From: Ulota crispa
Taxonomy: Eukaryota > Streptophyta > Bryopsida > Orthotrichales > Orthotrichaceae
Length of the DNA: 64,000 nucleotides
Direction of reading: 5' to 3'
Assembly (NCBI GenBank): GCA_963920765.1
Contig: OY987246.1
Location: 3,784,501 to 3,848,500, forward strand
Under the pieces are notes generated by a model. That model did not search any database. It was given only the letters and a program-made list of their open reading frames with translations, and had not been told where the DNA came from. The translations under genes were made by a program, and so were the position numbers. Each line of letters opens with the position of its first letter. Within the stretch, counting starts at the first letter, position 1. Below, piece by piece: positions 22,350-42,365 of this stretch.

Positions 22350-23765
22350 AGCAGCAGTACTGCTCGAAACTCGACACCCCGTGTTCGTGCAACTCGCCCA
22401 AGTGTCTATCGATCTCCTGACCGACTGCGTTTGCCCAGGATCCTCCGCCTCAGCCTCCGACTTCTGTCTCCCGGGCTTCGTCGAGTGACCTTGGGTCGAT
22501 CTATACTCCTTCTCTGCTCTCATGAATCTTTCAAGGTAGTACCTCTCTTGCATCACCTTACCTGTGTCGCTCCTGGAGTTGAACCGCAATCATGTCAATT
22601 GCAAGACAGTGAAAGTACCTGCGATATTTAGCTTCGGGTTTGAAGACCTATCCACCCTGATAGAAGGCACCGTAGTGGCGTTCGCAGATAAGACCTTGTA
22701 ACCAACAAGTGGCTACTTCCGCTCTATTTGTTCAGAAATAGACAAAGTCTGAGGTTTGATTCAATTTAACTGTTGCTCATTCTGTAACGGCGACTCGGTG
22801 TTGGTGTTCACTGAATAGGGCTTTAACAGATTGAGTTCCTCAACTGGTGAATCTTTTGCACAGTCGTGAAATATTGGCAACTCACTTTCTTGAGTAATCC
22901 TGGGATTTCTAACATGAATTTGGTGTCGCAGCATCGACACAACGAGCTTGTTAATGGTGCCAGACTGGCTGATCGAGCTCTTCCTCTGAGGCGTTCGGTC
23001 CACTTTGTGCCTTACACGCAGTGCTGTACCACTTTTTCACCTGCCAGAGCTTCTCCTCCTGTAGTAGCTGGAAGCGCTGGTGGATTCTGACCCCAGAGGT
23101 ACTTGTTGCATCTTTTGATCCTGCTTATTTTCTGAAACTAGCCTGTGCTGAAAGCTTCCACAAAAGAAGTGCCTTGATGGTCTGCTTGAGATTTTTGTAT
23201 TTAAAATTGTGAAGCTTGGTGGAGGATGTTTTATTGCTTTCCGCAGTGAGTTAAAGTGAGAGTCAAATTCTGTATTTGAGTTTGCTGGAGTGCATGTCCG
23301 GAATATGGGCTGCTAAAATAAACACTGCTAAGTTGAAGATATAGCTATTGTTCAGCTTTACTTAAAAATTGACCAACTCTTAAAATTTTCATTGCTAATT
23401 GTAGTGATGTAACGTATGGCCCCAACCGACATATGGTACAACTTATAACATGAACAAACCCACAAACATAGGTGGTATTTGGTGAAGTTAAAGAAGAGTG
23501 ACTCAATTGTATGCAGATTTACCAAGAACATGATGCTTAATTTGGTAGACTTTCAGGTTGGTGCTCTACTTTAATTTTCTGACTAGCGAGCATTAAATTG
23601 ACGATTTACTGGGAGATGTGATCCAAGTATTGATCACTGTGTCAGTTTATATCACCTTGACAGCTCGAATTAACCTCATAATTATGCTCAAAATAAAGGA
23701 GTGCAAATCATTAACATTAATCCCTGGGCGCCTAGAGTTATTTTAGGATTTAGGAGAAAATGGGG

Positions 23766-24023
23766 AATGCGTTATTCATTAAATTGGGAAAAATAATACA
23801 TTTTGGGACTTCTGAAGGATTCAGGTGATCACTTGAAACTGAGCTCAGAGCGTTTATTTTGGTACACGTGCCCTCACTTGAGAGGAGGAATTTGCAAGGG
23901 AAAAAATCTTAGTGGCCCATATTGAATTTGATACCTTTGAATTTGGTTTAAGGTGACTTTTTGGGTTTAAGGTGGAGTACAAAATGGTACCTCTATTTTT
24001 CCCAATTTAACAAATAACCTGTT
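23766..24023. mobile_element. Family F MITE in duplication copy 1
   Basis: Ends AATGCGTTATTCATTAAATT... and ...AACAAATAACCTGTT are mirrored. Flanks are GGGG and GGAG, a 4-bp duplication with one change. It contains the family markers gtacacgtgccctcac and gatcacttgaaac. It is absent from the matching place in copy 2. Confidence 0.65.
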
Positions 24024-24449
24024 GGAGGTTTAATGGCCACCAGAGTTTGGAAAATTACATTCATAAAAAATGACCCCAAGATTTGAAAAAGGACTTCCTT
24101 CTCTGCTGATGGGGACCGGACATGACTATTTTCACCATACAAATTAAGAAAAAAGTGAGATATAGTTGTGGCCCCCAGCAACAGTATCTTGTTGCTGGGG
24201 CGCTTAAGGGTTACCTACAAAACTTTTCACCGTGTGATGCATGCAAGTGCAAGCCGTGCAACCACTTGGCAGGATTTTTTTCTACCTTTTTTATAACAAA
24301 AGTGAAATCTCTGAGCGCTCACATGGGCCAAGAGCTTTCAAATGGACCAAGCAGACTACTCAGGATTTTTAACTCTCTTGGCTGGGTGCCAAGTGTAAAA
24401 CACGTCCAAGTTTGTGGTTTGTTACCAGTATTCACAATTGCGGCTAAGC

Positions 24450-24658
24450 TTCAGGGTCCGGGAAATTTTTGAGATTTTTAGGTAGATTTTCTTTGATTCT
24501 TGTATTGAACCGGTTTATTAAGAAGCTCTTTTGGTTATTTTCTCTATTTCATACTATAAGTAATTTTTTTGAGAAGTTTATAAATTGCGAACGATTTTTT
24601 CTCATTTCCATCGGTTAGCATAGAACTAGCGGTCGATTCTTTTATAAGCTTAGTGAGC
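24450..24658. mobile_element. Single-arm family H insertion upstream of membrane gene 1
   Basis: About 200 bp (from ttcagggtccgg to gtcgattcttt) is absent from copy 2 at about 40290 and matches one arm of the H fold-back at 15650-15862 (tttctctatttcatactat). It is inserted about 160-370 bp before the start codon of gene 1, so it may alter the upstream region of that copy. Confidence 0.5.
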
Positions 24659-24817
24659 TTATATTTAGCAAAACTTCTATCCTCTTTCACGATGTGGATA
24701 CAGAAAATATTAGGAATTACAGTGCTTAAATTTGATGGTCGAGTGCATGGACCAGCCATATTAGCCACTTGAGGAAATCATGAAAATCACGTTTGAGATC
24801 CACTGTTTGCTACTCAT

Positions 24818-26212
24818 ATGGAAGCACCGGGTATGCCTCCAGATCCGCAGGCTCCAATGCAAGGAAGAGCAATGCAGCTGCTTGCGCTTTGCGCATTCCA
24901 GCTGCTCGTGAATGCACGCATGTGTGCTGGTGGCCGAGGCGCTAGCCAAGTGCAGAGCCTAGTCGGGCTGACCCCGGATGTGTACGTCATCGGAATCTGG
25001 CAGCCGTACCTCAAAACCGTGAACAAGTGCGAGAATTTCCGGCTCAACTCCACGCCGGCGCTTTTCCAAGTCTGGCCTGAGGACGTTGGCAACTTCTGCT
25101 GCGAAGACAAGCTCACGCCGCATACCATTGCGAGCTACGTGCATTCGGAGGAGAATGGCCGCTACCTGAACCCCATCAAGTACTACGACGTGGGCATCGT
25201 GGACGCTTTCATGCCCTTCTGGTCGTCGTGGCGCCCCGACCGCATCAGCCAGAAGGACATCACCAAGCAGGTCTACTGCGAGGTGAACGACCTCAAGCGC
25301 TTCTACGGGCTCCGCTTCTGGCATGATGCTTTTGCCAAACAAGGGCTGCTTAAATCCGCCATCCCATTCGTGGTGTTCGTGGAGTCTCTCGTCTTCCTCG
25401 CGGCCATTTCGCAACGCTTGTACTGGGGTTTGGCAATCCCGCTTTTGAGCACGCTGCGGAAGTTTTGGGGATGGGAATCGACGTGGGATCTCATCCATCT
25501 GTGTTTGTTGGGCGTCAACGGAAGCTTGCTGATGGAAGCGGTGGGACACTGGGATCCGTGTGGGTGGGAGGCGGTGCTGTTGTACAACTCCGCGGTGGGT
25601 TACACGTACCTGAGTCTCTTGTCGGTTATCTCTGCCGTGGTGCTACAAGTTGCGGTCTGGACCGCTTTGACCACCGACATCCGTCTCAACCCCAACCGGC
25701 AACCCATTTCCGCCGAAGTCAGGCGGTATCATGTGAAGAAGGAATGGCAGCTGCAGCGAATCTCGGCGCAATGCGCGGTGTTCTACATCGCATCCTTGTA
25801 TTGTAACTTCGTGACCGTGTACACGCGCGATGAGTTCGTGGCCTGGTTGCTGGGGATCATCATCATCGCGCAAGTGTGGTCGTGCGTCGTGGCATTCGCC
25901 ATGCTCTACAAAGCTTTCAAAGTGGGATGCAGTTGCTACAAGGAGGTCAAAAAGCTTGAGAAGGAGGAGGCCAACAAGCTTGAGCAGGAGCGCCAGAAGC
26001 AGGCAGTCGAGCTTGAGACCAAGCGCAAGAAGCAGGTCGCCGAGCTCGATGAGGACCGCCAGAAGCAGGCCGCCGAGCTTGCGGAGGAGCGCCAGAAGCA
26101 GGACAACAAGCTTGAAGAGGAGCGCCAGAAGCAGGTCGCCGAGCTTGAAGAGGAGCGCCGGAAGCATGTCAATGAGCTTAACGAAGGGGTAGAAGCAGGT
26201 CGCCGCGCCTGA
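24818..26212 (+). CDS. Unrecognised multi-pass membrane protein with C-terminal coiled coil (copy 1)
   Basis: A single uninterrupted frame of 464 codons in DNA far richer in GC than its flanks. I do not recognise the family. Residues 18-38 form a hydrophobic signal or anchor segment. Residues 40-178 look like an exposed domain with Cys71, Cys94, Cys95 and Cys154. Hydrophobic segments fall at about 181-207, 224-243, 252-282, 315-335 and 338-366. Residues about 375-456 are a charged coiled coil of 11-residue repeats (E-E-R-Q-K-Q-x-x-E-L type). The ATG is shared with copy 2, where the same start and context occur. The last residues come from a changed frame: just past 26190 the neighbouring frame continues the repeat to a stop at about 26271. 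Substrate, location and role are unknown. Confidence 0.7.
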   Translation: MEAPGMPPDPQAPMQGRAMQLLALCAFQLLVNARMCAGGRGASQVQSLVGLTPDVYVIGIWQPYLKTVNKCENFRLNSTPALFQVWPEDVGNFCCEDKLTPHTIASYVHSEENGRYLNPIKYYDVGIVDAFMPFWSSWRPDRISQKDITKQVYCEVNDLKRFYGLRFWHDAFAKQGLLKSAIPFVVFVESLVFLAAISQRLYWGLAIPLLSTLRKFWGWESTWDLIHLCLLGVNGSLLMEAVGHWDPCGWEAVLLYNSAVGYTYLSLLSVISAVVLQVAVWTALTTDIRLNPNRQPISAEVRRYHVKKEWQLQRISAQCAVFYIASLYCNFVTVYTRDEFVAWLLGIIIIAQVWSCVVAFAMLYKAFKVGCSCYKEVKKLEKEEANKLEQERQKQAVELETKRKKQVAELDEDRQKQAAELAEERQKQDNKLEEERQKQVAELEEERRKHVNELNEGVEAGRRA

Positions 26213-26270
26213 GACGCAGCCCGAGATGCAGATCGTTGGTCTTGAGACGCAGTTCGCCGAACTTGTGGCA
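25979..26270 (+). repeat. 33-bp in-frame minisatellite, copy 1
   Basis: Six 33-bp units encode 11-residue repeats built on E-R-Q-K-Q-V-A-E-L. After the frame change near 26190 two further units can be read in the other frame (P-E-T-Q-P-E-M-Q-I and L-E-T-Q-F-A-E-L). These are intermediate between the copy 1 repeats and the proline-rich repeats of copy 2. Confidence 0.75.
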
Positions 26271-26279
26271 TAGCGCCAG

Positions 26280-26542
26280 ATTCATGTCGCACTGGCCTCC
26301 TCCAGAGATGACCTTACGAGTCGCATCTAACTTACCTGTCCTAACCAACATGAAATCACTGCCAGCCTCCTAGCTTCTGCCCAATCCCCATACAGCTCTA
26401 GCGCAGCAAACTCTTGTAAATTTTTTTGTAAATTTTTTTGTAGGGATTTGCGTATGAATTACCGGTGTATTAACAGGGGAATGTGAGACAAGGGAAAATG
26501 TGAGACACTGTAGATCATAAAAGAAATAGACAAAAATGTTTA
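26280..26542. other. 3' flank of membrane gene 1
   Basis: GC falls from the coding level to background here. It contains a short tandem run (gtaaatttttttgta, near 26415-26445). No polyadenylation signal can be assigned with confidence. Confidence 0.3.
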
Positions 26543-27465
26543 TTAACCCCAAAAGGTCCAAGTGTTCCCTTGGGGGACAAATGGACCTTGGGCATGTACT
26601 TGTGATTAAACTAGTTTTTATAAAAATGTTGAAATTTTTGAGGATTGTGGGGAATTCAAAGATGTACATGCACATTTAATTTTTTCTTCATTTTGACATT
26701 TATTGAAGAAGTTATGCATGAATTTCTGAACAACATGGGAGTGTAGGCACTCTAGGCAGCCCAAAAAACTTCTTTAAAAATTTCATTTTTCAAAATTAAA
26801 AATCTGAAATTGATTCTTTAGATTTTTACAAATGTGGGAAACTTTGAATCATTCAATTTTGATTTATGAGTGAGAAGTTTTGGCTTTTGGGTAGGTATGG
26901 GATTCCCAAACCTCCATTCCTTTTGCCCCTTGTAAAATTTGGTCCTTGACTTTTTATTTTACTTTTTTCTTTTGGGTTGTAGTAGACTAACCATTTGGAT
27001 CAAAGTTACTCAGATTTCTCAATTTTACATAAATCCTCCAATTTTGCCTAGTGTATATGCAAATTTCATGGCCTTATAGCATTGCAAGATTTTACAAAGT
27101 ATGTATCACAACTCCAATTCATTTGAAAATTCTCCCACACTTACCTAGCTTGGTCTTCTACATGGGAAAAATAAACTTCAACTTTTTGTAGAGCAAAATT
27201 TTTGATATAGGAGAGGTCAAAGGCTTCTGAATTTTTTGGGCAGCAAGGAAAAAAACTTTTTTTTTACTTCAGGTGTGAATATCTCACTCATTTACATTTA
27301 GAATGAGCTGATTTTTTTCCACAAGTACCCGCCACAATCTAGGGCAAGATCCTACAGTTAGATTTTCCAAAAGAACATGTTTTCCTACCTTTCTACTCAT
27401 TCTCCCAAAAGTGACAATTTTGAGTAACCTTCACAGAAAAAAGGGCTTGGGCCTTTAGGGGTTAA
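26543..27465 (+). mobile_element. Family B TTAA element, complete
   Basis: TTAA at 26543-26546 and 27462-27465 encloses 923 bp with ends CCCCAAAAGGTCCAAG and ...CTTGGGCCTTTAGGGG. A subterminal hairpin-like run (TCCCTTGGGGGACAAATGG) matches that of families A and E. Non-coding. This is the best complete B copy in the window. Confidence 0.78.
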
Positions 27466-27899
27466 CTCACAAGAAAGATGTGAAGAATTCTTGAAATAAG
27501 ACAAGAAAATTTACAAAAGTTTGTTGATCTTGCGATTTAAGAAAAAGTGGTCCAAATGTAGAGTCTCTAACTATACTGTCTAGTTCTAGTTTGAATTTAA
27601 GGTCAATTTTTGATATCCTTGAATAGTTGGTTGCATATTGTTTATGACTTTAGGAGGCTGAACTAGGAATCTTGTCTTTTTTTTAATATTCAAGGACACT
27701 ACATAACATTCAATAGCACTAGTAAAGGCTGCCCACCCTCCAAGAGAATGGTGTAGAACATTCCACACCTTTCTTTAACTATGGGGACACTTGGCTAAAT
27801 TTATTAGAGTTTATGAAAGGGAGGCTTAGTTCAGTGCACACACGTCAAGGGGGCTAGACGTGTTAAAAAATTAAAAATAAAAATAAATAAATAAATGAA

Positions 27900-27930
<31 letters not shown>

Positions 27931-28384
27931 ACTTTTTTTTTGTCAAGACAAAGTTTGTGGATGATACTTGAAGAGAGGGAAAGGCAACCTCTCTTTAGGC
28001 TACTGAATGTTTTGTAATTTAAAGTTGAACCGCAAAAAGGCAATAATATTGATCAACTACAAATTACAGGTTGCTAGATCCTTACTTCTGTACTTGTTTG
28101 TAGAAAGATTTAAGCTCCTTATTTTTATGCTTGTTTGTAAAAAGATATAAACTTTTACACCTAATTTTGCAAACATGTATTTTCAGTAAACCAAGCGCAA
28201 AATATGAATAAGCCCAAGAAAAAATGAGCACATTCTTAAGAAACATGGGCTTTTGCACTTGGTGGAGTTGGTGCAACAATGGATGGTTTCAACCCTTGAA
28301 CGCTTGGCTGTTCATCATGATTGTCCTTCTACAATTGCTCTTTAGTGCTCTACAATGGTGTAGCAAGTGTCCATCCACTATAAT
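27466..28384. other. Intergenic with an (AAAT)n microsatellite
   Basis: No gene recognised. 27866-27931 is a nearly pure AAAT/AATA tetranucleotide run. Two related 45-bp stretches (cttgtttgtagaaagat and cttgtttgtaaaaagat) lie at about 28096 and 28131. Confidence 0.5.
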
Positions 28385-28752
28385 CAATGTTGTTACTTTG
28401 GATGAGTTGAGGCTATCAAGGACAGCACGAATAGGTGGACAAATTGGACTGGACAGGCAAATGTGTCTGTCCGCTCACATTTTAAGGGCATTTTTAGGGT
28501 TTTTGACCTAAAAATGGAAGAATCAAATTATAAAGTTTCATTTTTTTATATGATACAGCTTTGAATCCACGTTTTGACTTCATGTTGGCAACAATGAGTG
28601 TCACTAGCAAACTACAAAGTAAGTTTTTTTTTATCATTTTGCACCATTTTTTAAAGTAAATTGTGAGTTGATTTCACCGCACGGACCATGATCTCAATTG
28701 GCCACTTCAAGTGTACAGATAGGCGGATGGGCGACCCAATGTGACAACCATG
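28385..28752 (+). mobile_element. Family I hAT-like MITE (I2)
   Basis: Starts CAATGTTGTTACTTTGG and ends ...CCAATGTGACAACCATG. Flanks are actataat on the left and attataat on the right, an 8-bp duplication with one change. It carries the internal marker agggcatttttagggttt. Non-coding. Confidence 0.65.
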
Positions 28753-28760
28753 ATTATAAT

Positions 28761-29480
28761 CATAGTTGTCACATTGGACCATCCATTCATTTGTTTGTTC
28801 ATACACTTGAAGTGCTTGATTGAGCTCATGATCAATCCAATGTAGTTAGCTTATAGTTGACTTTAAAAAAATGATAAAAAATAATGGTTTTTTTTACTTT
28901 GTACATGCTGGTGACACTTATTATTGCCAGCATGAAGTCAAAACATGGTTTCAAACATGGTTGTTACTTTGGGCAAGATTTGGGTGTTGGATAGTACAGG
29001 TACCGGTGGACACACAAAATAGATAATACAAACGGACGTGTTTGCCTTCTTATGTTTTTTAGGGCATTTTTGGAGTTTTTGACCTAAAATAGAACAAATC
29101 AAATAACTTTTTTTCATTTTCAATGCTTGATAAGTTGATATGCTTTATGTCCACGTTTTGACTTCATGTTGGCAACAATGGGTGTCACCAGCATGTACAA
29201 AGCAAGTTCTTTTGTCATTTTTTTATCATTTTTTAAAATCAACTATGAGCTGACCACTTGACTATATTGAATAAATCATGAGCTCAATCAGGTACTTTAA
29301 GTACTTTGAGTGTATGAACAAGCAAAAGGACGGGCAATCCAATGTGAGAACTATGGTTTCAAATCCATATTACATAGTAAAAATGAAAATTATTAATTTT
29401 GTTCTTCCATTTTTAGGTCAAATGTTCTAAAAATGTCCTAAAAAACAAGAGCAGGCAAATTTGTCCTTTTAGGCCTTTTG
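28761..29480 (-). mobile_element. Family I hAT-like MITE (I3), reversed, split by I4
   Basis: It begins CATAGTTGTCACATTGGACC in mirror orientation to I2 and resumes after I4 with tccatattacatag and cttccatttttaggtc. Its far end is degraded. Exactly eight bases (attataat) separate it from I2. Confidence 0.55.
28956..29355 (+). mobile_element. Family I hAT-like MITE (I4) with exact 8-bp duplication
   Basis: Starts CATGGTTGTTACTTTGG and ends ...AATGTGAGAACTATG. The 8-bp repeat gtttcaaa is exact on both sides (28948-28955, 29356-29363). Because the host I3 is a relative, the unfilled site can be read directly as atggtttcaaatcc, which confirms the duplication length. Confidence 0.75.
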
Positions 29481-30488
29481 TTTTGTGTGTCCCAAGGTTT
29501 GGGAAGAACGAGTGGTTAGTGTAGTGGTAGTTGGTTGAAATTGCAAAAAACCCGGTTGAAACTCAAAAACATTGGCTAAAAAACCAGTCCATTTTCCAAA
29601 ATATTATAAATATAGTACTTTGACAATAGAAATTTAGAAGTCTTACAAATTATAACCGGTCCATGTTAGTGAAAATCTGGTTGAAACTAAACATTGCCGG
29701 ATTTCAATTGGTGAAGCTAAACTTTCTCCCCAAACCTTGGTATGTCCCCTTGTCTTGTCAAACAGATTTTGGGGTTTGGTTTTCATATTGTCTGTTTGTC
29801 ACTTTGTCCCAACGTTGTCTTGTTGGACAAATTTTAAGGTTTGGTTGTCATATTGCCTATTTGACATTTGATGTAGAGCATGACAAATGCCAAGTATGAG
29901 TGACATTTTTGTCTAATAAGACCATATTTAACAATTGAGATAATTTGAAAATCTACTTTAAATATGACCCAAAATGTTGAATTTAATAAGTATATATTAA
30001 ATTGAGATACTTCAATAAAATGAAATGTTAATATGTCAAGATCAGAAATATAGAGAGCTTTATTTAAAAGTCAACCTTGAAATTGACTCTACTAGATGTA
30101 TGGGGGGCTCTTAGTTGTCTGTGATGTCCTATTTGTCAAGTTGTTACCATGTTGGAGAAGACAATACTGGCTTGGAGTCCTAGACATCTAGCCTTCAATT
30201 CTGCAAAAGTCAAACTACATCCTTACTACACCCCTAGAGCTTGGAGGGCCTGAACCCAAAATTGGAGGTTGCTTTCTAAACTCTAAGTGCCATGAAGATT
30301 CTAGAATTTTTGCTCTTTTGTGCCTGTAATTAACATGAATGGGCTTTTGGTTCCCATTACCCATGCCAAGGTAACTTGTTGTCAATTCTTGTCTATACTT
30401 TGTAGGAGGTGAACTATTAATATTCTAAACAAATGCCAACAAAGTGTCCAAGGCCTTGTCAAGCTTGAATAATTGTTGGCATACTACT
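29481..30488. other. Intergenic, nothing recognised
   Basis: About 1 kb of AT-rich DNA with two loosely similar stretches (tttggggtttggttttcata near 29767 and ttaaggtttggttgtcatat near 29832). No gene or defined element is supported. Confidence 0.4.
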
Positions 30489-30886
30489 AAGGTAGAAGTA
30501 CCCAAAAGTGACACTTACTTTGGATGTGGTAATTTGGAGGGTCTTTTGAGAATCTAATGACATGGGCTTGTCAAGAAATGGGTATAGATACAAGCATTAT
30601 TATTTTTGGGATTTTCTAAGATTGTGTGAATAAATTACAAATTGTTGGAGGCAACTCCCTAGATTGACCTATTGTGGACACTAGACCCCTGAAAAAGCGA
30701 CAACAAAAAGATCATGCCACATCCAATCATAAATAGCCATGTACACAAACTTTGTTTCCTTATGTTAATTTGCATGTTAATGGCTTGGGTGCTTGTGTAT
30801 CTTGTTTGGGTGCAGGAGCACTTAGCTTTATGTTTATTTATAAATGTCACTAAATGACTAGAGCCGTTTTTGGGTGCTTCTACTTT
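30489..30886 (+). mobile_element. Family N MITE (N1)
   Basis: Ends AAGGTAGAAGTACCCAAA... and ...TTTGGGTGCTTCTACTTT are mirrored. Two more copies lie at 47551-47929 (reversed) and 59389-59796. Internal landmarks are ctgaaaaagcgacaac and catccaatcataaatagcc. Non-coding, about 400 bp. Confidence 0.65.
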
Positions 30887-30887
30887 A

Positions 30888-31190
30888 GGGCATCTCCACC
30901 GGTGGCTCAGGCTCGCTCAAAGTGGATGAAAAGTAGACAAGCCCCTCTCAAACTCTCTTATTTGGCAAGTCTAGCAAGCCACTCTCCAAGCCACTATTCA
31001 TGCACTATTCACCCTAAGTTTAGTGAGCTTTATTCTCTACTTCCTTAGATAAGTGATTAACTGCTTATTTATGAAGTGTATTGGAGTCTAAGGCCACCTT
31101 TTCAAAAAGCATGGGTGGAAATTGAGACCCTTCAGGCCTTACCAAACCAAATGGAAAACTTTAAGTGAGTCTAGACCGGTGGAGATGCCC
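30888..31190. mobile_element. PIF/Harbinger-like (Tourist-type) MITE, TTA duplication
   Basis: Ends GGGCATCTCCACCGGTGG... and ...CCGGTGGAGATGCCC are mirror images, and TTA stands outside on both sides (30885-30887, 31191-31193). TTA duplications with GGGCATCTCCA-type ends are typical of plant PIF/Harbinger MITEs. The element is 303 bp and sits in the tail of N1. Confidence 0.75.
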
Positions 31191-31715
31191 TTACAATTAC
31201 ACTGTTACAATACATCAAATAGTGCATTTAGGTTGCCTCAACAATTAGGTTGCCTTACCTTGGAAAGTTACCTCATGACCCACCACTTGCCCACTTGGAA
31301 GTGCATGCAATTTTTTATATATTTATATTTCACTTGGTTTACAATTTGGATGTTGCTAGTTTGTCTTTCTACAATTTTGTAGTAGGTATCAAGCCTTTTA
31401 AAATTAATTTAATACAATAATTCCTAATAGAAATTATTGTAGCAACAATAAGTATTTCAATAGTGTGAAATGTCAAGAAATTAGTATGGGGCAACCTAAA
31501 TGCACTATTTGGTGTACACCAAATAGTGCATTTAGGTTGCCTCAACAATTAGGTTGCCTCAACAATTAGGTTGCCTCAACAATTAGGTTGCCTTACCTTG
31601 GAAAGTTACCTCATGACCCACCACTTGCCCACTTGGAAGTGCATGCAATTTTTTATATAATGAGACGAGTTGGTAAATCCATTTACCACGGTAAATGCAA
31701 GTTTGAGCATAATTA

Positions 31716-31884
31716 CATGCCCCCATGTGCCCATGTCCCCCATGCCCCATCCCCACGTCTCCATGTCCCCACGTCCCATCCCCCATCCCCTCATCCACCT
31801 CCATCCATCCATCCCCCCATCCATCCATCCCCTCATCCATCCATCCATCCCCTCATCCATCCCCCCATCCCCATCCACCCCCTC
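31716..31884. repeat. CCAT/CCCCAT-rich minisatellite inside L unit 2
   Basis: Irregular units based on CCCATGT and CATCCATCCC run for about 170 bp. The whole insertion (about 31655-31942) is bracketed by near-identical gcaattttttata and gcattttttata, which could be a target duplication. Long frames on both strands here are by-products of the low-complexity sequence. Confidence 0.65.
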
Positions 31885-32303
31885 TTACTTGCCAAGCCGA
31901 TAGTAATTACCCAACAGACAGGTAAGGGGGGGCATTTTTTATAAGTATTAAATTTCACTTGGTTTACAACTTGGATGTTGCTAGTTTGTCTTTCTACAAT
32001 TTTGTAGTAGTTGTCAAGCCTTTTAAAATTAATCTATTCAATAATTCCTGATAGAAATTATTGTAGGAACAATAAGTATTTCAATAGTGTGAAATGTCAA
32101 GAAATTAGTATGGAGCAACCTAAATGCACTATTTGGTGTACACCAAATAGTGCATTTAGGTTGCCTTAACAATTAGGTTGGTTGCCTTTCAATGGAAAGT
32201 TACCTCATGACTCATCACTTGGTCACTTGAAGGTGCATGAAATTGTGTAGATACTAGGATTTCACATGATTTACCATGTGGACTTGGCTAACTTATTGTC
32301 TTC

Positions 32304-32372
32304 ATTAGGAAAAAATTTAGCCCTCAATATGGTCTTTAAAATTTTTGTTAATTTTGTTCCTGATCTGGGAAC

Positions 32373-32407
<35 letters not shown>

Positions 32408-32561
32408 TTTTTGATTTTTTGATTTTTTTTAATTAAAAAATGACGTGGCACCAATGTTGCCACGTTAGCCTGCAAAATTTCCAGGGTTAGGAGGTATGGG
32501 CCCAAGGTTCCCATGCTTGGGAACTCAAGGCCTTATTGAGGGCCCATATTTTTCCTAATGG
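32304..32561. mobile_element. MITE (family Q) nested in L unit 3, with poly-A tract
   Basis: Ends CATTAGGAAAAAATTTAGCC... and ...GGGCCCATATTTTTCCTAATG are mirrored, with CCTCAATA inside both. A homopolymer of about 32 A lies at about 32373-32404. An internal palindrome (gtggcaccaatgttgccac) is near 32445. No reading frame. Confidence 0.6.
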
Positions 32562-33000
32562 CATTGATGTTGCTGTTGCCAAGGCCTTTAAAAGTTGCTT
32601 ATTGCAATAATTATTGCTGAAAATTACTGTAGTAACAATATGTATTTAAATAGTGTGAAATGTCAAGAAATTAGTATGAGGTAACCTAAATGCACTATTT
32701 GGTATACACCAAATAGTACATTTAGGTTGCCTCAACAATTAGGTTGCCTTGCCTTGGAAAGTTACCTCATGACCCACCACTTGCCCACTTGAAAGTGCAT
32801 GCAACTTTTTACATTTTAGATTTCACTTGGTTTACAACTTGGATATTGCTAGTTTATCTTTCTACAGCTTTGTAGTAGTTGCTAAGTTTTTTAAAAATGA
32901 TTTGCTACAACTGAAAATTACTATAACACTAGTAAGTATTTAAATAGTGTGGAATGTTGAGAAATTAGTGTTGGGCATCCTAAATGCACTATTTGGTGTA

Positions 33001-33132
33001 GCTAATCCCGAGTTTCCCGACTCTTTTACTTCTGCTTCCTTCGTGCTTCCGGAGAACGTGCCTCTGAAAGTCGCTAAGTTAGCCCATCATGATTTCCTTG
33101 GAGGCTGGAATGCACCGATTCCGCTGCTCCCC
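33001..33132 (+). other. Short GC-richer, possibly exon-derived fragment
   Basis: Directly after the L chain, an open plus-strand stretch reads a peptide with S-F-V-L-P-E-N-V-P-L-K-V-A-K-L-A and H-H-D-F-L-G-G-W-N. Composition is gene-like, unlike its AT-rich surroundings. I do not recognise the protein. It may be a captured or relic exon; it leads straight into a minisatellite. Confidence 0.3.
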
Positions 33133-33430
33133 GACTGAATAAACAAATGGGGACTGAATAAAAAAATGGGGATTGAATGAAAAAATGGGGACTAAATAAA
33201 AAAATGGGGATTGAATAAAAAAATGGGGACTGAATAAAAAAATGGGGACTGAATAAAAAAATGGGGACTGAATAAAAAAATGGGGCCGGAATGCACAGCC
33301 CCCGCTGCTCCCCGACTGAATAAAATGGGGCCGGAATGCACAGCCCCCGCTGCTCCCCAACTGAATAAAAATGGGGCCGGAATGCACAACCCCCGCTGCT
33401 CCCCGACTGAATAAAAATGGGGCCGGGAGC
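33133..33430. repeat. Compound minisatellite, 19-bp and about 46-bp units
   Basis: Part one has about eight units of ggggactgaataaaaaaat. Part two has three units of roughly 46 bp (ggggccggaatgcacagccc, then cgctgctccccgactgaa). The long unit also occurs once, diverged, before the array (ctggaatgcaccgattcc), so the array appears to have grown out of the GC-rich fragment to its left. Confidence 0.75.
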
Positions 33431-33504
33431 TCGACCTGCTTCTTTTCTTTATGAGTTTGTGGGGCTAGTTTGAAACAGCTCCGCTTTTTTGCATTCCAAC
33501 ATGT

Positions 33505-34434
33505 TTAACCCTTAAAGGACCAACTGTCTGTTCAACGGACAAATGAGATTTTGGGCATGTACCTATGGCCAAACTATTTTGCATAATTTTTTGAAATTTT
33601 TATTGAAGATGGAGAATTCAAAGATCTGTGTGGGCATTTAATTTTTATTCCAATTGATGCCAGGAAGCAAAAGTTATGTCCAAATAAGCACAAATTTGGG
33701 GACTCCGGGTAGCAAATAAGATTCTTATAAAAACTTGAAAAAAAATTTAATTTTTTTCTCATAGATTATATCTCTATCTACATCTGAAGCTTTGATTCAT
33801 TCCATTTTGACTAGTTATGAGATAGTTATGGACAATCTTGTTTTTCGAGCAATTCAAGCATCTTCTTGAAAAAATAACTTATAAACTTCATTTTTGAATG
33901 CAATTTTAACATTTTTTCAAAAAAAATTGTTGGAGAGGGTGAAGTTTGCTTTCTAGAACAATCTCACCATTGGGATCATTGCATTTCAATTCCATTGCAG
34001 GGTTATTAGCAATTTAAGTTTTTGTTTGATCTCATACCTTCTTCTACCTAATGTTTTTTTAAAGAATGAAAACTAAGTATTATTTTTTAAAAATTTTCCC
34101 AAGATTCCCAGCTCAACTTCCCGCCATGCAAAAATAGAATTCCAAACTTTGTGGTGCAAAAATTTTAAGTTAAAAAGGTTCAAAGTTAAATAATCTAGTC
34201 ATGTAAGGTGCAAAAAAAGGTGTTTTTTTACACTTTAAATGCATATTTATCTTTCAATTTGTGCAGTCAAAGTTCTTGAGTTTTGTATGACACATTCTTA
34301 TAATTGTCTAGTACACATTCCTACGGTTAGATATGCAAAAAGACCCATTTTCAAACTTTTTTACTCTTTGCCGTAGAGGTGGCAGTTTTGAGTGTCTTTT
34401 GACAAAATAAAGGCCATGGTCCTTTAGGGGTTAA
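33505..34434 (+). mobile_element. Family A TTAA element (A3)
   Basis: TTAA at 33505-33508 and 34431-34434 encloses 930 bp with ends CCCTTAAAGGACCA and ...GGTCCTTTAGGGG. It resembles A1 and A4 along the whole length with scattered differences. Non-coding. The stretch 34435-34838 after it holds nothing recognised. Confidence 0.78.
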
Positions 34435-34838
34435 CCCTTTAACAATTGTGGTGGATCCTAAGGTGGGCAATCCTTTGTATTTGAGCTTGGAGGACATTTT
34501 AGAATTATTGAATATAGATGTCTATCACAAATCTGACCGTACAAATGGAAGTATCTTGTAGCATTTAGTGTTATGCATCATGAATTATTCTCACTCTTTA
34601 GTTGTCATGGCCATCTTTTTGCATTTATTGGTGTATTTTTAGCTGGTACTTGTTTAGTTTTTTCAACCCTCTAGTCACATGCCACCTCAGATTGGCATGG
34701 TTATTGTCCTAAACTCTTCACTTTCCAATTCCCTAGACGCGTCCCCTTTGCCACGTCATCAAATTCCTTGACATGCTCTCTCTACAAACTGAAAAGAGTC
34801 AAAATTGACCAGGAATTGGTCGACTAATCTTTAATGGG

Positions 34839-36051
34839 TTAACCCCTAAAGGCCCAAGTGGTCCCTCTTGGGCCAAGTGTACCTACAACTAAACTATTTT
34901 ATGTGATTTTTTTTAATTTTTATAAGAGATGGGGAATTCAAAGATTTATGTGGGCATTTATTTTTTTCTTCATTCCAACATTTATTGAAGAAGTTATGCT
35001 TGAATATTTGAACAACAATGGAGAATTAGGTAGCCCAAAAAGTAAAAAGAATTGTGTTTTTTTGAAATAAAAGTTTGGAATTGGTTCTTTAGATTTTTAT
35101 ATACGTGGAAAGCTTTGAATCATTCAATTCCAATTGATGAGATGAAAGTTATGAGAAGTATTAGTTTGCGGGTAGGTGAAGGACTTCCAAATCTCCATTT
35201 CTTTTGTCCCTTGTAAAATTTGGTGCTTTGCTTTTTTGGGCTCTTTGTGTATTTGTTTTTTTACTTTCTTTTTCTTGAGTTGTAGTAGACCACAATTCCT
35301 TGATTTTCACCATTTGGATCAAAATAATTCCGATTTCTGAATATTACATAAATCCTCCAATTTTGCCTAGTATATATGCAAATTTCATGGCATTACGGCA
35401 TTGCAAGATTTTAAAAAGTATGACTGACACCTCCAATTCATTTGGAAATTCTCTCACACATACTTAATTTGGTCTTCTACATGGAAAAAAACAAACCTCA
35501 ACTTTGCATAGAGCAACTTTTTTGATAAAAGAGTGGTCAAAGGCTTCTAAAATTTTTGGGCAATAGGAAAAAAAAATCACTTCATATGTCAATATCTCAC
35601 TCTTCTACACCTAGAATGAGCTGATTTTTATCCCACAAGTGCCTCCCATAGTCTACAACAAGATCTTACAATTGGATTTTATAAAAACAAACAATTTTTC
35701 TACCTTACTCATTCCCCCAAAAGTGGCAGTTTCAGTGAGAAAAGGGTTTGGAACACCATATTCATTAATTTGGAAAAAAATGCCCAGTTTGGGAATAAAC
35801 TAGGTTTAAGGTGATCACTTTAAACTGAGCTCTAGGTTTTAGCAATGTTTTTTGGTACACGTGCCCTCACTTGAGAGGAGGAATTTGCAAGGGACGAAAT
35901 CTTAGTGGCTCAAACTAAATCTAATACCTTCAAATCTAGCATTTAAACGGTTTAAGGAGAAACACTAAGTTGAAGGTGAAGTACAACTTGGGAATCTAAT
36001 TTTCCCAATTTAATGAATATGGCATTTTGGGCCTTAGGCTTTAGGGTTTAA
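34839..36051 (+). mobile_element. Family B TTAA element, split by an F element
   Basis: It starts with TTAA (34839) and CCCCTAAAGGCCCAAG. After the F insertion it resumes with ttgggccttaggctttaggg and ends in TTAA (36048-36051). It is similar in length and interior to the complete B copy at 26543-27465. Confidence 0.7.
35752..36026. mobile_element. Family F MITE, target duplication TTGG, nested in B
   Basis: Ends AACACCATATTCATTAATTT... and ...TTTAATGAATATGGCATT. TTGG is exact on both sides (35748-35751, 36027-36030). The host B element gives the unfilled site (aagggcttgggcc in the other copy), supporting a 4-bp duplication. Confidence 0.75.
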
Positions 36052-36361
36052 TAAATAAAATTTTAAAAGTATAAAAACTCAAAATCCCCAAAATGGAGTT
36101 TTCTCAAATTAATGAATATATTAGGGGTTTCAGTTATGGCATTTTGCACCAAAATTGTTCACGTTTCCATCCTTGTAGTCTTTTGAAGAATTGTATTGTC
36201 TGATGCAACTAAGGTAGGCACACCCATAAGCATGGAAAAAAGGGTTTTGGAGTAGGAAAAAAGGATTTTGGAGTAGGATTTGTTCACAAAGATTTTTCAA
36301 AGTCCAAAATCACTAAAATTGTAGGAACCATGTGTAAGAGATGCTTAAAACAAGGCTTGCA

Positions 36362-36798
36362 TTAGAGGTAAAATGAGCTCAAGAGAAGGCCCCTATGGGA
36401 AGTGGTTGGAGGGGTCAAAAGCATTTAATTGTAATGTCCTTTTTCAAATAAAAAGAGACTAATACCCTATACCCACTTACAAGTACTTCATGAGAGTAAA
36501 TTTTTTTTACAATATCATATGCTTTTTGTTTGATGAGTGTCCTTGTTTGATTGGAAATTCTAATCCTAGTTTTTTCTTGTGTCCCACTAAAGGTCCTTGC
36601 ATTTGTCATTGTCATGTTATAATATTGTTTTCCATCATCAATCCTTTTGTTATGTACCATGGTACATTTGAGTATTTCACACAAGGTAGAGACCCTTGTT
36701 TAGGTACCTTACCTAGCTTCTCCTACCTCAGTAAATAGAGTGGTTTGTCAAGGTGTAGGGGCCTTCTCTTGAGCTAATTTTTCCTCTAATGTTGATTC
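36362..36798. mobile_element. Family K inverted-repeat element (K2)
   Basis: The element has the same TTAGAGG...GAGCTCA ends and interior as K1, in the opposite orientation. Both copies contain a short frame with K-D-I-T near its end, but the copies are so alike at DNA level that this says nothing about coding. After it, 36800-36900 is a loose repeat of caaccatcac-like units. Confidence 0.6.
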
Positions 36799-37047
36799 TT
36801 AAATAGCGAGATGGGTACTCAAAACCTCATGCTAGTCACCCACAAGTCCACAACCATCACTTCATCACCCATAACCATCACTCAATCACCCACAACCATT
36901 TGTTTTTTTTTTTTTATTAGCCCCTGCCATTGTGAGGTGACGGCCATGGCCCATGGGGACACAACGCTTATGGATGCTGCTACCTTATTTGAAATTGTTG
37001 GCACCCATCGAGTAGCCTAAATCCTACATAAGACCTCAACCAATCAT

Positions 37048-37302
37048 AACACCATATTTGTTAATTTGGGAAAAACGGTACATTTTGGGATTTTCAAGGT
37101 TTTAGGAGATCTCCTAAAATTGAGCATAGCATTTTTTTTTGTACACATGCCCTCACCTGAGAGGAGGAGTTTGCAAGGAAAAAAATCTTAGTGGCTCAAA
37201 CTAAATTTGATACCTTGGAATCTGGTTTAGGGTAACTTTTTGGGTTTAAGGTGGAGTACAAAATGGTACGTCCATTTTTCCCAGATTAACAAATATGGTT
37301 TT
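37048..37302. mobile_element. Family F MITE, target duplication TCAT
   Basis: Ends AACACCATATTTGTTAATTT... and ...AACAAATATGGTTTT. TCAT is exact on both sides (37044-37047, 37303-37306). It lies just left of duplication copy 2. Confidence 0.75.
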
Positions 37303-37404
37303 TCATGTAGTACTGCTCAAAACTCAACACCCTATGCATGTGCAACTCACCCAAGTGCCCATCAATTTCCTAATCAATTGCGCTAACCTTGTCCAAAATC
37401 CTCC

Positions 37405-38013
37405 AACACAATATTCATTAAATTGGGAAAAAATAGACATTTTGGGAATACGGGCCCTTTTTTGTCAAGTGTGCACTTGACAATTTTCCAATGAAATAAG
37501 ATATACATCTTCCAAAAATATGCTCTTTATTACCCAAGAAGCCAAGAATCTTCCAGAAATATGCTCTTTATTATCCAAAAAGCTAAAAATCTTCCAAAAA
37601 TATGCTCTTTATTACCAAAAAGCCAAGAACAAGACCTTTTTGTTCCACAAAATAATAATATTTCTGAAATTTTGGACACAAAGTTCATTAACTACGTGTA
37701 AGCTGACCCCTTAAACATTTAAGTTGACCTACTTAAACGTTTCAGTTGACCTCCTTAAACGTTTCAGTTGACCTCCTTAAACGTTTCAGTTGACCTCCTT
37801 AAACGTTTCAGTTGACCTCCTTAAACGTTTCAGTTGACCTCCTTAAACGTTTCAGTTGACCTCCTTAAACGTTTCAGTTGACCTCCTTAAACGTTTCAGT
37901 TGACCTCCTTAAACGTTTCAGTTGACCTCCTTAAACGTTTCAGTTGACTTGAGAGGTTTTAGGTGAAATACAGTTTGGGAAGTTTCTTTTCCCAATTCAA
38001 TGAATATCGTGTT
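37405..38013. mobile_element. Large family F element carrying a 22-bp tandem array, duplication CTCC
   Basis: Ends AACACAATATTCATTAAATT... and ...AATGAATATCGTGTT, with CTCC exact on both sides (37401-37404, 38014-38017). The matching place in copy 1 (about 22440-22462) lacks the element, so the unfilled site is visible. The interior holds about ten tandem units of cagttgacctccttaaacgt (37721-37949) and, before that, three units of gctctttatta-ccaaaaagcc type. Confidence 0.78.
37721..37949. repeat. 22-bp tandem repeat, about 10 units
   Basis: The unit cagttgacctccttaaacgt plus tt repeats without spacers; inner units are identical, the first is degenerate and the last partial. Uniformity of the inner units suggests recent expansion. 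It lies inside the F element at 37405-38013. Confidence 0.9.
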
Positions 38014-39076
38014 CTCCGACTTCTGTCCCGTCGAGTGACCTTGGGTCGCATTTACACTCCTTCTCTGCTCCTTTCGAATCAACACTCCTTCTTTGCTCCC
38101 TTGAATCTTTCAAGGAAGTACCTCTCTTGCATCACCTCACATGTGTCGCTCTCCTGGAGTTAAAACGCTTTCATTTCAATTGCAAGACAGTGAAAGTAAC
38201 TGCGATAGCTTCGAGTTTGAAGGCCTATATCCACCCTGATAGAAGGTACCCTCGTGACGTTCACAGGTAATACTTTGTAAACTACAAGTGGCTATTTCCC
38301 TTCATTTGTTCAGGAACAGATAAGCTTAAAATCTGATTTCAACTTGACTGTTGCTCATTCTGTAATTGCAGCGCGGTCTTCGAGTTTCCTGAATTCCACT
38401 TTACCAGCTTGAATTTCTCAACGTCTTGTGAAAATCGAGGGGTAACATGTGCCCCAATTTTTTTAATCTTTAGCACATGAAAATTCAGCAACACACTTTC
38501 TTGTGTGATCTGGGGATTTTGGGCATGAATTTGGTGTCGCAGTATCGACACAACGAGGTTGTTAACGGTGCCAAGCAGGCTGATCGAGTTTTCCCTTGAA
38601 AGCGTTCGGTCTACTCTGTGCCTTAAACACAGTGCTGTACTACTTTTCACCAGCCGAAGCGTCTCCTCCCGTAGTAGCTGGAAGAGCTGGTGGATTCTGA
38701 CCCCAGAGGTACTTGTTGCATCTTTTGATTCATCTGTTTACTAATACTAGCCTGCGCTGAACGCTTCCACAGGAGAAGTTTCTTGAATGTCTGCTTGAAA
38801 TTGTTGTATTTAGAGTTGTGAAGCTTACTGGATGATTTCCTTACTATCCGCAGTGGGTAAGCATGAGAGTCAGATTACATATTTGAGTTTGTTGGAGTAC
38901 GTCTTTGGAATAAGGGCTAGCAAACTGCAAACCTAACACTGCTAATTTAAAGATTTGGCTTTTGTTCCGCTTTAATTAAGTTTTGAACTCTTGAATTTTC
39001 TTGGTTAATTGTAGTGATATGACTTATGACCCCAACCGACATATGGTACAGCTTGACAACATGAACAACCCACTAG

Positions 39077-39349
39077 AACGTGTTATTCGTTAAATTGGGG
39101 AAAACGTAGGTACCATTTTGTATTCCACCTGAAACCCAAAAAGTCACTTTAAACCAGATTCAAAGGTATCAAATTCAGTGTGAGCCATTGAGATTTTTTC
39201 CCTTGCAAATTTCTCCTCGCAAATTTCTCCTCTCAAGTGGGGGCACGTGTACAAAAAAAAAAATGCTCTGGGCTAGAATTTAGGTAATCACATGAATTCT
39301 TGAAAGTCTCAAAATGTCTTATTTTTCCCAATTTAACAAATAACGCATT
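39077..39349. mobile_element. Family F MITE, target duplication CTAG
   Basis: Ends AACGTGTTATTCGTTAAATT... and ...AACAAATAACGCATT, with CTAG exact on both sides (39073-39076, 39350-39353). It lies within duplication copy 2. Confidence 0.75.
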
Positions 39350-39504
39350 CTAGGTAGTATCCACTGGTATTTAGTGATCTTAAATATGATTTTCACTTTT
39401 AGCAAAAACATTGCTAAAAAGCTTTATATTCAAATTTAACACTAAAAATTTATGTTTTTTTGCTGCATGAAAACTTTGTCAGCAATCATGCTAAATTTAA
39501 CCAA

Positions 39505-39770
39505 AATGCCATATTCATTACTTTGGAAAGAAACCCCAATATAGAAATAAACTAGGTTTAAGGTGACCACCTTAAACCAAGCTCTAAATTTAAGCAGCGT
39601 TTTTTTGGTACACGTACCCTTACAGGAGGAATTTACAAGGGGCAAAATCTCAATGGCTCATATCAAATTTGATATCTTCAATTCTGGTGTTTAATGCCGG
39701 AAAGAAAAATGTTGGGTTTAAGGTGTACAACTTGGGAATCTGGTTTTCCCAATTTAATGAATATGGCGTT
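39505..39770. mobile_element. Family F MITE in duplication copy 2
   Basis: Ends AATGCCATATTCATTACTTT... and ...TTTAATGAATATGGCGTT. Flanks ccaa and caat give only an imperfect duplication. The interior has the gtacacgta and tttaaggtgacc markers of the family. Confidence 0.6.
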
Positions 39771-41341
39771 CAATTTAGAGAACGCTGCATGGTATATGGT
39801 GAAGTTGATGAAGTGTGACTTCAATTGTATGCAGATTTACAAAGAACTTAATGGTTAATCTGGTAGATTTCACTTTTTCAGGTTGGTGCCTTACTTTAGT
39901 TTTTTGACTAGCAAGCATTAAATTGACGATTCACTTGGGGATGCAATCCGAGAATCTGTCACTATAACACTGTAAATCACCGTGACGGCTAGACTTCACC
40001 TCATAGTCTCATTATCCTCAAAATAAAGGAGTACGAAGCATCAAAATTAACTACAAAACTTTTAAACGTGTGATGCATACAAGTGCAAGTGTGCAACCAC
40101 TTGGCAGGATTTTTTTCTACCTTCCCACGAAGAAAAATAGAATTCTGAACGCTCTCATGCGCCAAGAGCTTTCAAATGGACCAAGTAGACTACTCAGAAT
40201 TTGTGATTCTCTTGGCTGGGCGTCAAGTGTGAAACGCGTCCAAGTTTGTGGATTGTTACCAGTATTAACAAATGAGGCTGCTATATTTAGCAAATCTTCT
40301 ATCCTCTTTCACGATGTGGATACAGACATTGAAAATACCACAGTGCTGATGTTTGATGTTCGAGTGCATGGACCAGCCATATTAGCCACTTGAGGAAATC
40401 ATGAAAATCACGTTTGAGATCCACTATTTGCTACTCATATGGAAGCACCGGGTATGCCTCCAGATCCGCAGGCTCCAATGCAAGGAAGAGCAATGCAGCT
40501 GCTTGCGCTTTGCGCATTCCAGCTGCTCGTGCATGCACGCATAAGTGCTGGTGGCCGAGGCACTAGCCAAGTGCAGAGCCTAGTCGGGCTGACCCCGGAT
40601 GTGTACGTCATCGGAATCTGGCAGCCGTACCTCAAAACCGTGAACAAGTGCGAGAATTTCCGGCTCAACACCACGGAGGCGCTTTTCAAAGTCTGGCCTG
40701 AATACGTTGGCAACTTCTGTTGCGAAGACAAGCTCACGCCGCATACCATTGCGAGCTACGTGCATTCGGAGGAGAATGGCCGCTACCTGAACCCCATCAA
40801 GTACTACGACGTGGGCATCGTGGATGCTTTCATGCCCTTCTGGTCGTCGTGGCACCCCGACCGCATCAGCCAGAAGGACATCACCAATCTGGTCTACTGC
40901 GAACTGACTGACCTCCAGCACTTCTACGGGCTTCGCTACTTGCAAGTATTGGCCAAACAAGGGCTGCTCTACTCCGGCATGCCGTTCGTGTTGGTCGTGG
41001 AGTTTCTCGTCGGCCTCGTCGCCATCCTGCAGTGCGTGCTGTGGGGTTTAGCAGCCCCGCTTTCGAGCACGCTGCCGAAGTTTTGGGGATGGGATACGAC
41101 GTGAGACCTCATCCATCTGTGTTTGTTGGGCGTTAACGGAAGCTTTCTGACGGAAGCGGTGGGACACTGGGACCCGTGCGGGTGGGAGGCGATGCTGTTG
41201 TACAACTCCGCGGTGTTTTACACGTACCTGAGTCTCTTGTCGATCATCTCTGCCATGATGCAACAAGTTGCGCTCTGGACCGCTGTGACCACCGACAACC
41301 GTCTCAAAACCACACAGGATAACGTCCCGAAACAGACACAG

Positions 41342-41509
41342 GTAGTCGACGAAGAGAAGCCGAACCTGGTCGAGAAGGAACCCGTTGTCGACGAAGGAAA
41401 GCCGGACCAGGTCGAGGTCGAAGTCGTAGTCGACGAAGGGAAGCAGGACCAGGTCGAGAGGGAACCCGTAGACGAGGAAGAGAGGCCGCACCGGGTGGAG
41501 AAGGAATGG
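41342..41509 (+). repeat. 42-bp in-frame minisatellite in the third loop of copy 2
   Basis: Four units of exactly 42 bp begin gtagtcgacgaag or a close variant and encode 14-residue acidic repeats. Copy 1 has only a short unrelated loop here. The array is an expansion specific to this copy and keeps frame. Confidence 0.85.
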
Positions 41510-41740
41510 CAGTTCCAGCAATTCTTGTCGCAGTTCGCGGTGTTCGTCACGGTGTCCTTGTATTGTAACTTCGTGACGGTGTACTCGCGAGATGAGTTCG
41601 TGGCGTGCTTGCTGGGGATCATCATTGTCGCGCAAGTGTGTTCGTTCGCCGTGGCATTCGCCGTGCTCAACAAAGCTTTCCAAGTGGGACGCTGTTCGTA
41701 CACAACCGCCCTGCTTGCCAAGTCGCGCCAGACGCAGCTC

Positions 41741-41872
41741 GCCGCCTCTGGGACGAAGCCTAAGATGCCGGCCGCCGCCTCTGAGACGAAGCCCGAGATG
41801 CCGGCCGCCGCCTCTGGGACGAAGCCTGAGATGCCGGTCGCCGCCTCTGGGACGAAGCCTGAGATGCCGATC
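41741..41872 (+). repeat. 33-bp in-frame minisatellite in the tail of copy 2
   Basis: Four 33-bp units encode A-A-S-G-T-K-P-E-M-P plus one variable residue. Unit length and phase equal those of the coiled-coil repeats of copy 1, and the tail of copy 1 contains units of intermediate sequence. Confidence 0.85.
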
Positions 41873-42365
41873 GCCAAACCTGAGGAGGCAGAGCCTGATG
41901 CAGGTCGCCCTGAGATCACCTCACCAGCAGCACCAATGAATGTGCACACTGCGAATGGGACTCGGAAGTAGCCGGTCCTGCGTCGCTCCCCACCACTTGT
42001 GTATGTAATTCTTTTCACAGGCTGGATCTTCCCAACACTGATGCAATTTTTGCTGCAGATTGAAGCATTGTAGTAGAAGAATGTAAGTACTTACAAGTTG
42101 TTGCCGAGAAACTGCAAGTTATCACAAGTAATGTGTCACTCCATTAGCAAACGCAGTGTGCATAGGGGACAAGCAGAGGCATGAGAAAATGAGATAACAT
42201 GCTGTTACATGAGGTTTTACTAACAAGGTCAGGTCCGGTGTTTCCATTCTAGTGGAGACATTGGAGCCCTAGAAGTCCCTAAACCTCTTGCTAAAGTGGC
42301 CCCCACCAAGCAAAATGCAAGCTGTCTTTTTCCAAGTGTACACATTGATGATGCTCTAAGGCACA

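Follow-up and report, generated by a model that had tools for sequence, protein, structure and literature searches.

A segmentally duplicated pair of genes for putative five-helix membrane proteins in the moss Ulota crispa

We analysed a 64,000-nt stretch of DNA from the moss Ulota crispa (C5:3784501-3848500). This whole stretch is called the window, and positions given without a locus name are counted in it. Two related genes, copy 1 and copy 2, are found on its plus strand (Table 1). An earlier note on this DNA had claimed two related open frames, and both are present, with starts at 24818 and 40439 and a distance of 15,621 bp between them. Copy 1 is not a chance frame, because the longest open frame in 30 Markov simulations (48 kb, local composition) reaches at most 225 codons, compared with its 464. 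The GC content of third codon positions is 0.76 in copy 1 and 0.74 in copy 2. The layout described for the proteins, namely a signal-like segment, a Cys-containing domain, five hydrophobic segments (putative transmembrane segments, TM1 to TM5) and a repeat tail, is recovered by hydropathy and repeat scans. The true start of copy 1 could be M14 or M19, since its relatives on contig C3 begin at about M19. In copy 2, 48 additional codons of acidic repeats are located in the TM3-TM4 loop, and the tail is unlike that of copy 1. It had been taken for a single intact gene, which does not hold, as an in-frame TGA at 41102-41104 interrupts it. An assembly error is an unlikely source of this TGA, because passages of the assembly paper give a consensus quality value (QV) of 60.9 and a HiFi coverage of about 117-fold (PMC11803377). 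The same passages give BUSCO scores and do not mention a gene set (PMC11803377), so the genes are probably without annotation so far.

Table 1. Features of the two genes and their surroundings in the window (tract, difference counts relative to copy 2; nt, nucleotides; MITE, miniature inverted-repeat transposable element).
Feature	Position	Strand	Details
Copy 1	24818..26212	+	open frame, 464 codons
Copy 1, parts (residues)			signal-like segment ~19-40; ectodomain ~41-175; five hydrophobic segments within 180-365; 11-residue repeats in tail
Copy 2	40439..41971	+	frame as in copy 1, one internal TGA
In-frame TGA of copy 2	41102..41104	+	after codon 221; copy 1 counterpart TGG (Trp)
33-nt tandem repeats, copy 1 tail	25977..26166	+	5.8 copies; coiled-coil-like ERQKQVAEL units
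33-nt tandem repeats, copy 2 tail	41740..41869	+	3.9 copies; TKPEMPAAASG units
42-nt tandem repeats, copy 2 TM3-TM4 loop	41342..41506	+	3.9 copies; none in copy 1
Duplicated unit, copy 1 side	22455..25940	+	six collinear blocks: 22455-22519, 22499-23463, 23473-23720, 24211-24445, 24660-25689, 25715-25940
Duplicated unit, copy 2 side	38014..41702	+	blocks 38014-38070, 38078-39073, 39790-40050, 40047-40279, 40282-41307, 41477-41702
Low-divergence tract versus copy 2	24741..25265	+	14 differences/525 sites versus 76/501 outside (24660-25689 examined)
MITE-like interspersed element, 431 bp	41929..42359		at end of copy 2; matches elsewhere in genome
High-copy interspersed repeat, ~190 bp	24452..24641		5' flank of copy 1; absent at copy 2 site, where blocks adjoin at 40279/40282

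A check for further copies, as the earlier note had proposed, was run with protein queries against the 274.8-Mb assembly of 157 contigs. It yields three more genes at about 30% identity; the search scores only the best candidates, so that distant members may be missed. The searches agree on five gene copies: the C5 pair, two genes on C3 and one on C7. The C3 genes (L008 2364-3713, 449 residues; L009 2216-3583, 455 residues) are 76% identical and lie 10.5 Mb apart. The C7 gene (L010, minus strand) has two exons, 4373-3922 and 3386-2573, which join to 422 residues and are separated by a GT-AG intron of 535 nt between the ectodomain and the first hydrophobic segment. The term intronless, used in the earlier note for the pair, suits the frames of all four C5 and C3 genes but not the C7 relative. 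The C5 and C3 lineages may be intronless through older retroposition or intron loss, or conversely the C7 gene may have gained its intron. A further locus on C2 (L024) matches just the last 60-69 or so residues of the C3 genes and their 3' flank; its identity is 76% to L009 over 579 bp and 65% to L008 over 290 bp. It carries an internal stop and reads as a truncated 3' relic. With the ectodomain alone as query, two more genome matches are obtained, at E values of 0.275 and 2.41.

Four members could be aligned for the analysis of invariant residues. The ectodomain comprises about 120-150 residues and contains three invariant cysteines, C94, C95 and C154, together with invariant columns that include W61, P87, E88, D97, D124, W135, E155, N157 and D158. 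The invariant columns in or near the membrane part include D224, H227, E240, Y256, N257, Q277, W281, W310, Q313, Q318, W354 and S355; the first six of these are polar residues retained in the TM2-TM3 stretch. The hydropathy scan calls the signal-like segment and five more in copy 1, in the C7 gene and across both halves of copy 2. Basic residues were tallied for three of the five genes after the loop boundaries had been placed by eye. The presumed outer loops hold 0-2 (TM2-3) and 0-1 (TM4-5) Lys or Arg, and the presumed inner parts 2-8 (TM1-2), 5-6 (TM3-4) and 2-5 (first 20 tail residues). These counts give partial support to a topology in which the TM1-2 loop and the tail would be inside and the TM2-3 and TM4-5 loops outside. 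The TM3-TM4 loop and the tail, which vary by gain and loss of repeats, are assigned to the cytosol in this predicted topology.

The duplication reaches well beyond the coding frames. Six collinear blocks are shared by the two units at 77-91% identity, and past them the C5 tails are related through the 33-nt repeats only. Judged by this alignment, the C5 pair is a segmental duplication at the DNA level, because the homology includes about 2.3 kb upstream of the genes. Retroposition as the source of the pairs was rejected because of this upstream homology, which is about 1.3 kb long for the C3 genes. One upstream block, 22499-23463, is low-copy, seemingly noncoding and kept at 77% in both units. 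No convincing open frame for a hidden gene is found in this block, whose one partial relative is a 311-bp match on C6 at 79%; it may serve as a promoter or encode a noncoding RNA.

Within the duplicated unit, a tract on the copy 1 side that takes in noncoding DNA 5' of the ATG is unusually similar to copy 2 (Table 1), and its contrast with the remainder is matched by none of 200 permutations. The similarity extends to sites expected to be silent. In the noncoding part 5' of the ATG, 2 of 83 sites differ in 24735-24817 versus 13 of 74 just upstream (Fisher P 0.0018), and 4 of 143 third codon positions differ before 25248 versus 24 of 146 after it (Fisher P 8.8e-5); the boundaries of both tests, including the coding one at 25247, were read off the copy 1/copy 2 alignment first and are thus post hoc. 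The pattern suggests gene conversion after the duplication. Gene conversion is preferred because purifying selection on the ectodomain alone leaves the silent and noncoding part unexplained.

Ratios of nonsynonymous to synonymous divergence (dN/dS) were estimated by the Nei-Gojobori method with 500 codon bootstraps. Synonymous divergence (dS) in the C5 pair is 0.14 for the core and 0.22 for all sites. For the C5 pair as a whole, poorly aligned tail included, dN/dS is 0.90 (0.69-1.19); the C5 core gives 0.80 (0.53-1.28) and the C3 pair 0.79 (0.58-1.13). As a yardstick, five cytochrome P450 paralogues give 0.23-0.38 in 10 of 10 pairs at a dS of 0.12-0.28. This yardstick was picked after the family values were known; its 5 loci, out of 93 matches, were selected for long open frames and for belonging to one subfamily. 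One of them, L047, is interrupted and contributes 274 codons only, and the yardstick stands for one gene family, not for the genome background. Near-related P450 genes are clustered at C8:12239012-12664290, where two equal-scoring genes lie on opposite strands at 12650323 and 12662848. Within the C3 pair, dN/dS is 0.50 (0.33-0.81) for residues 1-270 and 1.38 (0.85-2.33) for residues 271-449, a split at 270/271 that was chosen after the dN/dS results had been seen.

The frames themselves are maintained nonetheless. Neutral simulations, 2000 for each pair, predict 7.35 stops in the C3 pair, which has none (P(0)=0.001), and 4.73 in the C5 core, which has one (P(<=1)=0.053). Indels are multiples of three in 9 of 9 cases in the coding stretches compared (C5 core 2/2, C3 coding sequences 7/7; the C5 tails were excluded for their poor alignment), versus 3 of 30 in the upstream flanks (0/11 and 3/19). 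We read these values as weak constraint, to which diversification of the C-terminal half may be added. The family had been called young and evolving. This finds support in the C5 pair, with its low dS, its dN/dS of 0.80-0.90, the change in repeat length, the conversion-like tract and the nonsense codon, but youth is not a trait of the family as a whole, since the C5, C3 and C7 lineages share about 30% identity and have reached saturation at synonymous sites.

The claim that the family is unrecognised holds against Pfam, NCBIfam, PDB sequences, viral contigs and prokaryote genomes. In Pfam-A, none of six sequences (copy 1, the two pieces of copy 2, both C3 proteins and the joined C7 protein) gives a match above the curated cut-off, the best score being 15 bits versus a cut-off of 27.8. 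In NCBIfam, copy 1 as the only query gives none above cut-off either, with sec62 as the best match at 16.5 bits versus 166.65. Identities as Sec62 and as UL45 were rejected, for their matches are weak, cover 29-38 residues only and fall far under the cut-off. Among PDB sequences, residues 1-377 of copy 1 find no match up to E 10, and a family profile (A2) finds none. The family pattern is fitted by 36 stretches of viral contigs and by 64 stretches of prokaryote genomes, with none confirmed in either set. A literature search, confined to one paper collection and to the chosen wording, did not find the family described, and its proteins may well already be listed as uncharacterised in other mosses.

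Three known systems resemble the family in layout and were compared with it. The GOST or lung-seven-transmembrane (LUSTR) proteins have a signal peptide, a Cys-containing luminal domain with a GOLD-like fold and a multi-helix bundle. The likeness lies in this order of signal, Cys-containing domain and helix bundle; however, their helices are seven in number, whereas the hydropathy scan gives five segments in copy 1 and the C7 gene, and no Pfam match above cut-off supports the relation. The DOMON-cytochrome b561 proteins of plants likewise place an ectodomain at the N-terminus, before five or six helices, a number comparable to ours. Haem binding needs several conserved histidines, whereas H227 is the sole invariant His in the four aligned members, and again Pfam gives no match above cut-off. 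Tetraspanins are likewise multi-pass proteins whose outside domain carries a conserved CC pair. Their CC motif is located in the large outer loop between TM3 and TM4 of four helices, whereas C94 and C95 of the family precede TM1.

From the gene sequences we propose, at a probability of about 0.4 for the whole chain, a receptor-like protein of five helices with its N-terminus outside and its C-terminus inside, an ectodomain braced by disulfides and a cytosolic side that varies. The protein would enter the secretory pathway, leaving the ectodomain outside and the C-terminus inside. At the surface or in an endomembrane, the braced ectodomain would be coupled to the five-helix bundle in a receptor-like role, and the fast-changing cytosolic face would set the output or the partners. 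The C5 pair arose by the segmental duplication, gene conversion has probably homogenised part of it, and copy 2 bears a nonsense codon.

Several observations weigh against this proposal. The TGA divides copy 2 into 221 and 288 codons, so that this copy is broken, and the C5 tails show gaps that are not multiples of three. All dN/dS intervals of the family include 1 except that of C3 residues 1-270, and relaxed constraint is thus possible. After the signal of the C3 protein of L009 the hydropathy scan calls four segments and misses one of the aligned five; in that of L008 it misses TM5 and calls one overlapping pair, and the five segments of both were completed by alignment, not by the scan alone. 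The topology is backed by charge in part only, because acidic residues outnumber basic ones in the TM3-4 loop of two of the three genes counted. N-glycosylation sites in the ectodomain are common to the members only in part. The receptor role itself is a prediction from the gene sequences, and the conserved polar TM2-TM3 stretch would suit a transporter or a membrane enzyme equally well.

The last point leads to the main rival, in which the five-helix bundle with its invariant TM2-TM3 polar residues does the work as a membrane transporter, channel or enzyme, and the ectodomain serves as a cap or assembly domain. The dense invariant run D224-W281 after the ectodomain, and the D, H, E, N, Q and S residues in or beside hydrophobic segments, would fit such a function. 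Neither Pfam nor, for copy 1, NCBIfam offers a model of this kind that scores above cut-off, and five segments are an unusual number for common transporter folds; we regard this rival as rather unlikely. Next comes a decaying family under relaxed constraint, with the C5 pair lacking a present role and its frames open merely through recency, which we also hold to be on the unlikely side. The dN/dS near 0.8-0.9, the nonsense codon, the end of copy 2 inside an interspersed element and the truncated relic on C2 would all agree with decay, as would the borderline stop test of the C5 core and the C5 part after the stop, which evolves no faster than the rest (dN/dS 0.75). However, the C3 pair is free of stops, the indels compared are in frame without exception, and the cysteines and the TM2-TM3 residues are kept in all three lineages despite their low identity.

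Selection for recognition, in reproduction or defence, would instead diversify mainly the C-terminal half. The dN/dS of 1.38 in C3 residues 271-449, the repeat turnover in loop and tail and the conversion-like tract point in this direction, yet the interval includes 1 and the split is post hoc. Moreover, it is the presumed cytosolic side that changes fast, while recognition of an outer ligand predicts a fast ectodomain, which in the C3 pair is the slower part (dN/dS 0.43). We consider such selection very improbable as the main explanation. A bolder version of the receptor-like proposal, which is improbable as it stands, sees an undescribed moss class of five-helix receptor-like proteins, whose ectodomain and TM2-TM3 core stay constant while the cytosolic half is diversified by positive selection, repeat slippage and transposon-end capture. 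If true, one sensing head would be wired to ever new outputs. An orphan membrane family alone is unsurprising, because newly sequenced plants often yield such families; this one would matter if it proves to be restricted to mosses and positively selected, and to our knowledge few fast-evolving moss surface proteins have been described. Within a single place the C5 pair also shows stages in which genes are born and die: it was duplicated as a segment, carries a conversion-like tract and a nonsense codon, and takes one C-terminus from an interspersed element.

This element at the end of copy 2 (Table 1) supplies with its first bases the last 14 or so codons and the stop. Similarity to the end of copy 2 is found at seven other genomic places. 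In the five that were extracted for comparison, it spans from about 41928-41936 to 42346-42363 at 71-84% identity. At the start of three of these five, 25-27 nt match the right end of the element (42335-42360) in inverted orientation, and a direct comparison of the two ends of the window's own copy gives no match between them. Two short elements with inverted ends, 23816-24016 and 39554-39763, match each other and were considered as part of the duplicated unit and dropped; they are separate insertions, because their order is reversed relative to the neighbouring blocks. A short element is scattered in the window at 23773-24016, 35845-35937, 37131-37223, 39554-39763 and 42654-42897. The same element is present at L009 1809-2023, roughly 190 bp upstream of the start codon of the C3 gene, where it has inverted ends of the CATATTCGTTAAATTGGGAAA type as judged by eye; the matching site of L008 is empty.

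Around the pair (window 1-47 kb), GC content is 30-43% in most kilobases. The earlier note had called the two genes, together with UPF1 and a maturase, the only GC-rich coding islands of a repeat desert. This is roughly right, but a stretch of 47% GC at 22-23 kb, part of the duplicated unit, has no convincing open frame. The UPF1 island is borne out by a UPF1 zinc-binding domain at 58573-59136, while the maturase-like frame gives a reverse-transcriptase match only below the curated cut-off. A reverse-transcriptase-like frame on the minus strand over 63137-64000 leaves the window at its end and scores 24.8 bits for RVT_1 versus a cut-off of 29.6. The region 48000-59000 is GC-rich with a strong excess of C over G on the plus strand, and the UPF1 zinc-binding exon lies inside it on the minus strand. 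Elsewhere in the assembly, the plastid psaB scores best with PDB chains of photosystem I from Physcomitrium patens, and 46 of 48 matches to the plastid psaA/psaB family are found outside the plastid contig C157, in many nuclear places (C1-C10).

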